Source: Marinilabilia rubra (GTDB lineage Bacteria > Bacteroidota > Bacteroidia > Bacteroidales > Marinilabiliaceae). From it: a stretch of 64,000 nucleotides of DNA. The notes beneath the pieces are model-generated. The model was given only the letters and a program-made list of their open reading frames with translations. It searched no databases and had not been told where the DNA came from. Both the position numbers and the translations under genes were made by a program. Below are positions 6,799 through 62,036 of this stretch, piece by piece. Every line of letters starts with the position of its first letter. The first letter of the stretch is position 1. Where the stretch lies: the NCBI RefSeq assembly GCF_003121985.1, contig NZ_QEWP01000008.1:62001-126000 (forward strand). Direction: 5' to 3'.

Positions 6799-7152
6799 AG
6801 GCTATTCCTTTGTCTTGTTTTGAACTGGTACGTCAATCGTTCAGAAAGGTTTCTCATTTTTTAAGTATTACTTCAATTTGTCATCAAAGGTTTATTTTAT
6901 GTGATGAATGATGATTTTTTTTAGACGAGAATGTCTTTAGCTGTTGTCGAATGGGAATTCCGCAGCTTTTGAATTGAACCTGGATTATTCATAAATTATC
7001 TATTACAATGTTCAATTACCTGCCAAATACTGGCGTCCTCAATAAAACTGACTTGAAAATAGTTCACTATTTCCTTCATCAATTTTCTTTGTGGGTGCCA
7101 GTATTTATTGGCACCTGAACATTTCATAACGAAAACTCATGCATAAACCAGG
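6799..7152. other. 354-nt intergenic region with nested inverted repeats
   Basis: No coding frame is supported here. The main structure is an inverted repeat: TGCCAAATACTGGC at 7021-7034 pairs with GCCAGTATTTATTGGCA at 7097-7113 (three unpaired bases). Each arm is itself a small hairpin, and a further 6-bp hairpin (AAATAG/CTATTT) lies between them. The rest is AT-rich and featureless. Confidence 0.5.
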
Positions 7153-29860: not shown

Positions 29861-30257
29861 CAGGGGCTGACTTCCTGTGTAAGGATTTAGCCTGATAATA
29901 TAGTTGTTGTTGTTTTCTCAAATGTGAAAAGTGAATTTTCGTTAGTTAGTGCCCGTATATAAAGTCGGGAAAGTTTGTAAACAGTTTTGTGTCTGGTCAG
30001 AAAGGGCCAGTTGCAATCCCGAGGCTTCGGGAGCGAAGCCTGAAAATACGCAGTCCCGATCCCTCGGGATGAGTAATTTTCGGGCAAGCGTAACGCGGTA
30101 AATGGAACTTTATGGAAACGCACTAGTCAGGGTTAAGGAATTTTCAAGGTAAAAACATATTATCCGATTAATAAATTTATACATTTGTGAAAGAACTTTT
30201 TGGGAATGTTTTTAAGCATTTTAAGAAGTTTTAATAAGAAATTCTAATATTAAGAAT
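29861..30257. other. 397-nt intergenic region between rseP and tatA
   Basis: No gene. Most of the space is taken by the MITE-like element at 29947-30125. The 130 nt before tatA are AT-rich and presumably hold its promoter, but no clean TTTG/TAnnTTTG pair was found. Confidence 0.5.
29947..30125. mobile_element. 179-bp MITE-like element with terminal inverted repeats
   Basis: The ends are imperfect inverted repeats of pattern TAGTGC-N7-ATAAAGT (left from 29947, right ending 30125). The interior is a chain of hairpins: CTGGTC/GGCCAG, AGGCTTC/GAAGCCT, two TCCCGA-N4-TCGGGA palindromes (30017-30032, 30054-30069), and an outer stem TGAAAAT/ATTTTCGG around the second. There is no coding capacity. 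A target duplication is not clear, so mobility is inferred from structure only. Confidence 0.55.
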
Positions 30258-44400: not shown

Positions 44401-44644
44401 CGGTACAATTGCCGGTTGTATGGTTAAAGAAGGTAAAGTGAAACGCAGCTCAAAGATCAGGGTTATTCGCGATGGTATTGTGATATTTACCGGCGAACTT
44501 GGTTCTCTTAAGCGCTTTAAGGACGATGCCAAAGAGGTCGCTTCGGGATATGAATGTGGCTTGAATATTAAGAATTTCAACGATATAAAAGTAGGCGATA
44601 TTATTGAAGCCTTTGAAGAAGTAGAAGTTTCCAGAACTCTTTAG
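41492..44644 (+). CDS. infB: Translation initiation factor IF-2
   Basis: 1050 aa from ATG 41492 ([15 protein letters not shown], the IF2_N helical domain). An upstream in-frame extension to 41420 is not credible. Residues about 60-440 are a low-complexity Lys/Glu/Gln/Pro linker. It contains a motif, VVGKIDL, repeated three times (about 127, 228 and 342), a short poly-Gln run and an Arg/Lys cluster. A second IF2_N-like helix set follows ([16 protein letters not shown]). G domain from about 557: [42 protein letters not shown]. Domains II, III and IV follow, ending EEVEVSRTL. It positions initiator tRNA-fMet on the 30S subunit; that tRNA is also encoded in this window. Confidence 0.97.
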
Positions 44645-60504: not shown

Positions 60505-61455
60505 ATGGATTTGGTGCTGGAACAACGGGCAAAATTAATCCGGGAGTTTGCACAGGACCTTGGGTTTGATGACGTGGGGTTTGTATCTGCCGAACCCATG
60601 CAGAAAGAGTCTGACTTTCTGGAGCAATGGCTTGAAAAAGGCTATCATGCCGGAATGGATTACATGGAAAGGAATTTTGAAAAACGTACCAATCCGGCTA
60701 AGTTGGTTGAAGGTGCAAAGTCCGTTGTAGTATGTCTTCAAAATTATGCTCCATCAAGAAAGGAGAAACCTTCAGGCGATTATAAGATCTCCAAATATGC
60801 CTATGGAAGAGACTATCATAAAGTGGTAAAGAACCGTCTGAAAAAACTCTTTACCTTCATACAATCAGAAGTGGATCCCCAAGCGGATGGTAGGTTTTTT
60901 GTTGACTCTGCTCCCGTTTCAGAGCGAGCCCTGGCTGCCAGTGCCGGTTTAGGGTGGAGAGGGAAAAATACCAATCTCATTCATCCCCGGTTAGGATCTT
61001 TTATTTTTATAGGAGAAATAATTCTAAACATTGATTTACCGTCAGGTTCTCCTATCAAAGAAGCTTGTGGGGGTTGCACTCGTTGCATCGAAGCTTGTCC
61101 CACAGATGCCCTCAGATCGCCTTATGAACTTGATTCCAATCGCTGCATCTCTTACCTGACCATTGAAAATAAGGGGAGCATATCAGCCGAATTTGCCGGG
61201 AAAATGGAAGACTGGATCTTTGGCTGCGATATTTGTCAGGATGTTTGCCCCTGGAACTGGAAAGCAAGGCCACATTCTGAGCCGGATTTTAAATTATGGC
61301 CGGTTTTCAAGAATATGGAAAATCAAAGCTGGGAGGAGCTCGATGCCGGTTGTTTTGACGAAATCTCCCGAGGCAGCCCAATACGCAGAGCAGGATTTGA
61401 TGGGATTAAGAGAAATATATCTTTTGTGGTGAATGCCAAAGATCCCGATAATTAG
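60505..61455 (+). CDS. queG: Epoxyqueuosine reductase QueG
   Basis: 316 aa, normal length. Reduces epoxyqueuosine to queuosine in tRNA, the last step of the modification; uses cobalamin and two 4Fe-4S clusters. Cluster ligands: CGGCTRCIEACPTDA and CDICQDVCPWN. Other motifs: GYHAGMDYMERN, KYAYGRDYHKVVKNRLKKL, DSAPVSERALAASAGLGWRGKNTNLIHP. It sits at the end of the suf run, fitting its need for clusters. Its stop codon overlaps the left end of a 160-bp fold-back element; the reading frame is not shortened by it. Confidence 0.96.
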   Translation: MDLVLEQRAKLIREFAQDLGFDDVGFVSAEPMQKESDFLEQWLEKGYHAGMDYMERNFEKRTNPAKLVEGAKSVVVCLQNYAPSRKEKPSGDYKISKYAYGRDYHKVVKNRLKKLFTFIQSEVDPQADGRFFVDSAPVSERALAASAGLGWRGKNTNLIHPRLGSFIFIGEIILNIDLPSGSPIKEACGGCTRCIEACPTDALRSPYELDSNRCISYLTIENKGSISAEFAGKMEDWIFGCDICQDVCPWNWKARPHSEPDFKLWPVFKNMENQSWEELDAGCFDEISRGSPIRRAGFDGIKRNISFVVNAKDPDN

Positions 61456-61614
61456 AAACTGTTTAAATTTTGTTTTTGGAAGATGTTTTTGAAGATTTGA
61501 GTTCTTAGACAAGTCAAAATTGACACGAATAGCAACGCTATTTAAGGAAATTTTGACGAAGTATAAGAGCTCAAGACCAGAAAACATCCCAAAGGATAAA
61601 ACTTAAACAGTTTC
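61455..61614. mobile_element. 160-bp fold-back MITE flanked by TTA
   Basis: The ends are near-perfect inverted repeats (left GAAACTGTTTAAATTTT, right arm reading GAAACTGTTTAAGTTTT on the other strand). Symmetry continues across the whole element: GATGTTTT, TTGAGTTCTT/TTGAGCTCTT, GTCAAAATT and a central AATAGC-AAC-GCTATT hairpin exactly at the midpoint. TTA flanks both sides (61452-61454 and 61615-61617), as expected for a 3-bp target duplication. It fills the gap between convergent queG and the YjbQ-family gene. Confidence 0.75.
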
Positions 61615-61625
61615 TTAGATAAGCC

Positions 61626-62036
61626 TTATTTTTCGGAATCATAAACAGTAACTACTATTCTTCTTTCTTGCCTGGGGCCATCAAACTCGCAAAGGAAGAT
61701 ATTTTGCCATGTTGAAAGCCCAATTTCACCATTAGTAATCGGGATTGTTTCGGAAGGTCCTACAATGCCGGCCTTTAGGTGAGAATCCCCATTGTTGTCC
61801 TGGGCGTCATGTTGCCATATTCCATGAGGGATTATTTTTCGCAGCCAGTTTATGACATCCGTTTGAACCGAATCGTCCCAGTTTTCCTGAATCATTATTC
61901 CTGCAGTTGCTCCCTGAACATAGACATTTGCCAATCCTGTTTGTATATTGCACTGGGAAATTATTTTTTTGACCTGGGTCGTAATGTCCAGGAGCTGATC
62001 ATGTTGATGGGTTTGAATTGTAATTGCCTTTTGCAT
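61626..62036 (-). CDS. YjbQ/UPF0047 family protein
   Basis: 136 aa, single-domain YjbQ (secondary thiamine-phosphate synthase-like) protein. Pattern: ITTQVKKIISQCNIQTGLANVYVQGATAGIMIQEN, DGDSHLKAGIVGPSETIPI (here NGDSHLKAGIVG) and LSTWQNIFLCEFDGPRQERRIVVTV. The His and acidic residues of the trimer active site are present. Some members can replace thiamine phosphate synthase in vivo, but the native reaction is unknown. Its stop codon is 11 nt from the MITE. Confidence 0.9.
   Translation of the reverse strand: MQKAITIQTHQHDQLLDITTQVKKIISQCNIQTGLANVYVQGATAGIMIQENWDDSVQTDVINWLRKIIPHGIWQHDAQDNNGDSHLKAGIVGPSETIPITNGEIGLSTWQNIFLCEFDGPRQERRIVVTVYDSEK

Follow-up and report, generated by a model that had tools for sequence, protein, structure and literature searches.

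A MITE-like element at the queG stop codon of Marinilabilia rubra carries a covarying hairpin core, probably selected as RNA, within ends that differ between lineages

MITEs are usually regarded as transient remains that a single IS has left in a single genome. Among the closest described systems, the ERIC repeats of enterobacteria (also IRU or RU-1) are 127 bp long, were found in E. coli, Y. pestis and V. cholerae, and form RNA hairpins reported, in the parts of the two sources cited here, to affect neighbouring transcripts in Yersinia (PMC2229807, PMC2267715). The NEMIS (Correia) elements of Neisseria are also MITEs, of about 107 or 155 bp, and the section cited describes their RNA stem-loop as a proposed RNase III substrate (PMC2229807). 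YPAL (RU-2) of Yersinia, 168 bp long, is a mobile palindromic repeat whose sites are occupied in some relatives and empty in others; in the same section it is given duplications of 3-26 bp and internal inverted repeats, and is not A+T-rich (PMC2229807). Within Bacteroidota, Porphyromonas gingivalis carries MITEs (MITEPgRS/464, BrickBuilt) with ends of the IS5-IS kind and internal tandem direct repeats, and the part of that paper cited here lists the IS5-family IS ISPg4 (PMC4596501).

Here we describe a hairpin element found in a 64,000-nucleotide stretch of the Marinilabilia rubra genome (contig NZ_QEWP01000008.1, positions 62,001 to 126,000 of the forward strand). This whole stretch is called the window below, and coordinates refer to it. 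The features of the locus are the following:

60505..61455, + strand: queG, epoxyqueuosine reductase (TIGR00276, 346.4 bits); its stop TAG at 61453-61455 straddles the element junction
61452..61454, no strand: left copy of the TTA target duplication, from sequence; its TA forms the first bases of the queG stop TAG
61455..61614, + strand: MITE-like element, an imperfect 160-bp palindrome (sequence, fold z -8.86, genome copies, covariance-model match); + is the strand with the more stable RNA fold
61455..61466, + strand: left terminal inverted repeat GAAACTGTTTAA, from sequence
61490..61580, + strand: conserved 91-nt structured core (two-sided changes in 22 of 24 pairs of alignment A5; matches of model R2)
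61528..61542, + strand: hairpin tip AATAGC-AAC-GCTATT, among the best-kept parts of the core
61603..61614, - strand: right terminal inverted repeat, GAAACTGTTTAA on the - strand, from sequence
61615..61617, no strand: right copy of the TTA target duplication, from sequence
61626..62036, - strand: convergent yjbQ / UPF0047 gene (TIGR00149, 134.7 bits)

The 160 bp at 61455-61614 begin with GAAACTGTTTAA and end with TTAAACAGTTTC; the 12-bp terminal repeats are perfect and the G+C content is 0.31. The initial annotation had described a fold-back palindrome with a central hairpin and TTA on either side, spanning 61452-61617, i.e. the 160-bp element plus both TTA copies, and both sequence and DNA fold bear this out. 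Folded as DNA, 61440-61630 reaches -35.8 kcal/mol, where shuffled versions average -11.98 (z -8.86), with the hairpin tip in central position; none of 200 shuffles folds as well. The covariance model introduced below scores the element at 187 bits, this row being part of the model's own alignment.

Pfam and NCBIfam, searched up to E 10, had nothing matching the peptides from the frames of the element. A short open frame on the + strand, ending in the right repeat and partly kept between two genera, was considered as coding and rejected: Pfam, NCBIfam and a plasmid tblastn search returned nothing for it, it is broken (by eye) in the G192 copy, and its partial conservation is taken as a chance product of conserved sequence. 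The element itself had no match in a plasmid search. Rfam had no match over the window element or in seven distant loci, only sub-threshold ones, the best with 32.5 bits to the MIR2630 microRNA hairpin model, whose gathering score is 144. In the literature searched, with most subscription journals outside its scope, we found no paper on such an element.

The first base of the element is the G of the queG stop TAG (61453-61455), and 11 bases separate its other end from the end of the convergent yjbQ. The statement that the element supplies the stop-codon G is thus true as sequence. However, the base after the right TTA (61618) is also G and the flanks joined without the element read AAT TAG, so the stop was probably TAG before the insertion as well, and the element had no need to rescue it. 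The queG-yjbQ pair is kept in all four congeners (G001-G004) and the element is absent from each. Three of them have short gaps between the two genes; in the fourth, with a gap of ~190 bases, BLAST shows only a chance 8-base match to the element, and the core model had no match in the congener queG-yjbQ loci. The comparison with relatives thus finds the site without the element in all four, with junctions too diverged for the exact pre-insertion TTA triplet to be read or an exact duplication to be proved.

The element is a multi-copy one. BLAST gave 55 matches in the M. rubra genome (reverse-strand rows being the palindrome matching itself), with 12 near-full copies of 89-100% identity, the window's own included; other copies are short (103-106 bp), split, eroded or cut. 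Across genomes the copies lie at many places, rather than once only or at one and the same place in distant genera. Flanking triplets were compared for 64 clear-ended copies from two genera (g1, g12) and from distant families. They are identical in 47, each identical pair being TNA (TTA 24, TAA 16, TCA 6, TGA 1), and TNA stands on both sides in 51, which points to a 3-bp target duplication. This set leaves out truncated or badly eroded copies (e.g. L020, L025, L027, L028, L032-L039), copies whose model-placed ends lie inside or at other repeats (L301, L304, L306, L309, L311, L317-L320, L058) and one more locus set. Short and non-coding, with terminal inverted repeats, many copies with TNA duplications and none at the congener site, the element can be kept under the name of MITE that it was first given.

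Several copies show peculiarities of their own. In L019 (G000:C57:173142-173303) the central hairpin, but not the outer arms, is inverted relative to the other aligned full-length copies; in L054 one of the inner arms seems, by eye, to be a copy of its partner. In L222 and L224 (G049) an arm of the long stem is interrupted by an additional small hairpin (GTACGATGGCTATCGTAC). A second multi-copy palindromic element, with terminal inverted repeats of about G[AT]GYCTGTCYATAAA and 42 matches in the M. rubra genome, is inserted in copies L021, L022, L023, L024 and L026 (and in part L027 and L028) of the first, at the TATTTA, or a variant of it, of the hairpin tip. It has TANNTA duplications by pattern in four of eight loci, one of them imperfect; one diverged copy lies in the window at 29949-30123, between TAGTTA and TAGTCA.

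By mechanical gene calls the copies are nearly all intergenic, a single one of 57 overlapping a called frame (of 110 aa), and 8 of the 57 are within 5 bases of a stop codon. Since TNA covers TAA and TGA, insertions at stop codons arise naturally. The 51 classifiable copies occupy 29 tandem, 14 divergent and 8 convergent gaps, compared with 22, 7 and 7 among the window's own 36 gaps. Their orientation to the neighbouring genes is unbiased (++ 15 and -- 14 of 51), which argues against a cis role in host transcripts. Lying between two convergent genes, over the stop codon of one and close to the end of the other, the element had been thought to serve as a bidirectional terminator for queG and yjbQ. 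We regard this as very improbable: no intrinsic-terminator-like site was found in the element, convergent placement (8 of 51 copies vs 7 of 36 gaps) is not preferred, and the three congeners with short gaps manage without it. With neither an orientation nor a convergent preference and no terminator-like site, a specific service to queG or yjbQ is unlikely.

TNA target duplications are a trait of the IS5 subgroups IS1031, IS427 and ISL2. The end of ISPg4, GAGACTGTTGCA, as listed in the part of the P. gingivalis paper cited here, is identical to GAAACTGTTTAA at 9 of 12 positions (PMC4596501). On these two likenesses IS5 is our best guess for the transposase. IS5-type transposition, as initially proposed, is consistent with the TNA triplets and the ends; it stays unproven, with no parent IS found, and the narrower assignment to IS427/ISL2 is one that these features cannot fix.

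The search for such a parent covered several sets of genomes. Domains PF01609 (DDE_Tnp_1) and PF13586 (DDE_Tnp_1_2) are absent from the M. rubra genome, and PF13359 (DDE_Tnp_4) had no match in five genus genomes. PF01609 had 45 matches across 11 of 12 relatives; among the 30 of these 45 that were read as loci, several of which stop at contig ends, there was no IS with matching ends. The 13 matches read of the 15 in the four congeners all have other ends. IS-sized end pairs with 4 mismatches in 24 at three loci (L251, L252, L265) were taken as chance. As these searches of the genome and the genus, over the matches read, gave no IS5 transposase with such ends, the element is not filed as an IS5 member.

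The 17-bp end pattern GAAACTGTTTAARTTTT occurs in 13 of 71 family genomes (backward-read control, 0 of 71) and in 14 of 393 order genomes, where the control matched in a few. The places fetched outside M. rubra (24 of 30 among the order matches listed and many of the family set) turned out to be short elements, lone ends and chance pairs, with no IS, and a scan of all 43 viral loci for the exact pattern gave no IS either. A 2144-bp end pair in one genome (G233) was rejected as parent IS: it consists of two separate 160-bp elements, and the two frames between them encode no transposase but a beta-barrel protein and a DUF4848 protein. According to the initial annotation, lack of an IS with matching ends throughout the phylum would speak against its reading; the search made here, within the genomes covered, does not establish such a lack.

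In five genomes (G207, G235, G397, G233, G001) identical or almost identical ends, most of them flanked by TNA, surround quite dissimilar interiors, so one transposase system seems to serve several MITE families. MITEs with GAAACTGTTTAA ends and TNA flanks in G207 (L280, L281, L282, L284, L285) and in G397 and G235 (L271, L273, L275) carry at least one G+C-rich palindrome of the CCACGGGCTTTAGCCCGTGG or CCTCCGGTTTACACCGGAGG kind; G+C-rich intergenic hairpins of this kind may be mobilised by the same system.

In the second genus, g12, the length is often the same 160 bp and both arms are changed together. For a wider survey a full-length covariance model (R1) was run against 247 genomes of the order; filtering was strict and 11 candidates were scored in each genome, which makes its copy numbers minimum values. 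Other palindromic MITEs are matched by R1 too. R1 gave matches in 16 genomes; three of these, G089 (family f20), G207 (f25; three of its four matches were tested) and G246 (f74), are not recognised by the core model and were dropped as false relatives (L308 of f74, the only such row in alignment A4, was left out of A5). This leaves 13 of the 247 genomes, representing 12 families, as carriers of the element, with 49 of 62 matches being 155-162 nt long. The ends (GAAGCTG, GAGCTTG, GGAACG, GGCTTTG, AGTGTCATG) differ between families around a common inner part. In two copies of family f115, L306 and L320, the core is the same and the terminal repeat around it (AGTGTCATGTCAAG in L306), flanked by CTAG-like sequence, is unrelated; ACTAGTGTCAAGTCAAGC, similar to the f115 repeat, abuts the truncated M. 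rubra copy L032.

Relationship among the distant copies was also assessed with a sequence profile of the whole element, which is blind to pairing, run on 33 loci. It gave E below 0.001 for families f5, f53, f82, f84, f70, f72, f83 and f115 and for Flammeovirga aprica, and weaker values for f102, f67 and f114 (E 0.0025 to 0.024); f25 and f74 were matched at the ends only, and f20 at chance level (0.5). A core-only profile reached E below 0.001 in f5, f70, f84, f72, f83, F. aprica and one f115 copy and had weak values, 0.02 to 0.1, in f82 and f53, whose sequence signal is in the outer part. Against shuffled targets the whole profile found nothing at E up to 1 and the core profile one match at 0.53.

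The 91-position core model, R2, was built from 22 sequences of ten lineages. It finds f114 (73.9 bits), f102 (66.9) and f67 (50.4), none of which is in its training set. At E up to 0.1 it had no match in L305, L308, L310 and L321, nor in 17 loci, among them the other MITE families that share these ends; with the limit raised to E 0.5, 43 viral loci and 30 transposase loci gave none. The core is thus common to the window element, 11 other families of the order and F. aprica, which belongs to Cytophagales. The F. aprica copy is full-length and scores 68.9 bits with R1, a model built without it; it is the sole R1 match in 67 loci, which come from viral contigs and from named genomes of the Bacteroidota type. 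The copy stands 881 bases upstream of queG rather than at the queG stop; as the locus was fetched via its queG, this nearness is due to that choice or to coincidence. In three other Flammeovirga genomes the stretch is without an insert, and the F. aprica junction lacks a clear duplication.

Two further places in the window gave weak model matches. On the - strand, 6981-7150 is a 170-bp palindrome beside the stop codon of a frame, with -62.9 kcal/mol as RNA; as it scores 24.1 bits with R1 but fails the core model (E 0.5), it is probably another hairpin repeat. A core-model match at 44561-44640 (E 0.45) was taken as chance.

The palindrome had been recognised in the initial annotation; what it missed is a conserved core in which the pairing is kept by covariation. 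In 31 copies from g1, g12 and f5, 18 of 56 predicted pairs have two-sided changes. Over this full-length alignment 96.5% of cells pair, and covariation is 0.196 against 0.105 for shuffled alignments (0 of 500 reach it) and at most 0.050 for slid ones. The signal is stronger in core alignment A5, with two-sided changes in 22 of 24 pairs, 94.7% of cells paired and a covariation of 0.685; shuffled alignments give 0.218 (0 of 500 reach the observed value) and slid ones no more than 0.194. Conservation extends to the tip and to parts of the inner loops that do not pair, in contrast to the differing ends. That the core fold was kept while sequence and ends changed suggests that the folded RNA itself matters.

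A fold may be kept in RNA or in DNA. Selection on DNA only would give about as many G-T as C-A mismatches, so an excess of G-T was tested as a sign of RNA. The + strand folds better in 29 of 31 copies, in 27 of 28 broad rows and in all 22 cores, and the core consensus folds at -18.3 on the + strand vs -7.4 on the - strand. In the arm alignment of the 31 copies there are 188 G-T and 100 C-A cells, with G-T ahead in 27 copies and C-A in 3; by lineage, G-T exceeds C-A in 12 of 13, the exception being f114. In core pairs the count is 35 G-T vs 5 C-A, for pairs picked by folding the + strand, and 17 vs 4 for those with a Watson-Crick majority. The most neutral test, using pairs common to the folds of both strands and the symmetric gaps between them, gives 111 G-T vs 87 C-A cells, with two columns mostly G-T and two mostly C-A. 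Copies share ancestry, so strand counts are not independent; shared ancestry and use of the + strand fold inflate them, and we treat them as hints, not proof, that argue for selection on RNA and against pure template switching.

Palindrome arms can stay alike by template switching (quasi-palindrome correction) without selection, and the element could then be a plain MITE, an IS deletion derivative with a functionless palindrome and an inherited core. Many copies, the ends and the TNA duplications are as such an origin would have them, as is the lack of orientation or gene-class bias; the inverted tip of L019 and the copied-looking arm of L054 are what template switching would give, and thus it does occur in the element. 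The most neutral strand test, being weak, also leans this way. Template switching is, however, blind to strand, yet G-T exceeds C-A in the other tests; moreover, the tip and inner loops are conserved where a deletion derivative would be expected to keep its ends. On balance we consider this account unlikely.

Alternatively, the hairpin might have no RNA role and be required to act as single-stranded DNA in excision, strand transfer or protection of the element. The strong DNA fold suits this, and both orientations being alike looks as if host transcription were irrelevant; but the + strand preference with G-U type pairs suits RNA better. TNA duplications, for their part, indicate an ordinary DDE reaction on double-stranded DNA, and we find the single-stranded account improbable.

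The explanation that we think probable is a non-autonomous element of the MITE kind whose core is kept by compensatory changes, with selection most likely acting on the + strand RNA. Its mobility is seen in the ends, the TNA triplets, the many copies and the absence from congeners. A transposase, most likely IS5-like, would act in trans on the inverted ends and leave 3-bp TNA duplications; against this explanation, no transposase or full-length parent was found in the genomes and loci searched. In the window the TNA target would have lain over the queG end, and because TNA covers TAA, TGA and their complements, insertions could restore a stop and be tolerated there. Compensatory changes would have preserved the inner 91 nt in many families, as the ends changed, with the + strand fold better kept and G-U tolerated over C-A, as expected if selection is most likely on the + strand RNA; covariation and, less firmly, strand bias are observed, and from them we infer transcription and function. 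When transcribed, the hairpin would probably form a stable double-stranded RNA, as is thought for ERIC and NEMIS, and may help the element to survive or spread rather than serve queG: by analogy with NEMIS, this RNA, perhaps an RNase III substrate, could soften the cost of insertion or stabilise a short transcript.

A bolder reading, which we put forward only tentatively, is that of mobile RNA hairpins across Bacteroidota, in which the 91-nt core, with its RNA fold selected, would have lasted very long by acquiring different terminal repeats, and with them different transposases, in different lineages. The core RNA itself may be part of the element's mobilisation or toleration. A MITE-like element that mostly keeps its length and covarying fold in 12 sampled families of the order and in Flammeovirga (Cytophagales), with ends that change, is the finding on which these readings draw. 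Should the strand bias be real, the element is a mobile structured RNA that Rfam lacks, and it becomes testable whether hairpin repeats of the ERIC and NEMIS kind persist via their RNA. The core model can be used for annotating Bacteroidota genomes.

How does the element compare with the systems named at the outset? It has the features of the ERIC/NEMIS/YPAL type, namely one long stem-loop, intergenic position and presence in several genera, the likeness drawn here being one of description. Like ERIC, as described in the parts of the literature cited, it is intergenic, multi-copy and predicted to form a single long stem-loop; unlike ERIC, whose termini are 5'-TA-3', it is 160 bp long, duplicates TNA and lives in Bacteroidota, and it has lineage-specific ends around one core. 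The effect described for ERIC depends on orientation, whereas no orientation bias was seen here. NEMIS termini likewise carry 5'-TA-3' in the section cited (PMC2229807), in contrast to the TNA duplication of the present element. With YPAL it shares a similar size and a palindromic, mobile nature; it differs in its TNA duplication, its terminal repeats and its G+C content of 0.31. The P. gingivalis MITEs share its phylum and have ends in common with IS5-family ISs, one of which, ISPg4, matches its end at 9 of 12 positions; their internal tandem direct repeats, as far as that paper is cited here, set them apart from the present element as described (PMC4596501). We read the element as a new mobile hairpin of the ERIC/NEMIS type with its RNA fold under selection. 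It departs from ERIC, NEMIS and YPAL in its host phylum, in its TNA target and most of all in having a single core inside ends that vary.
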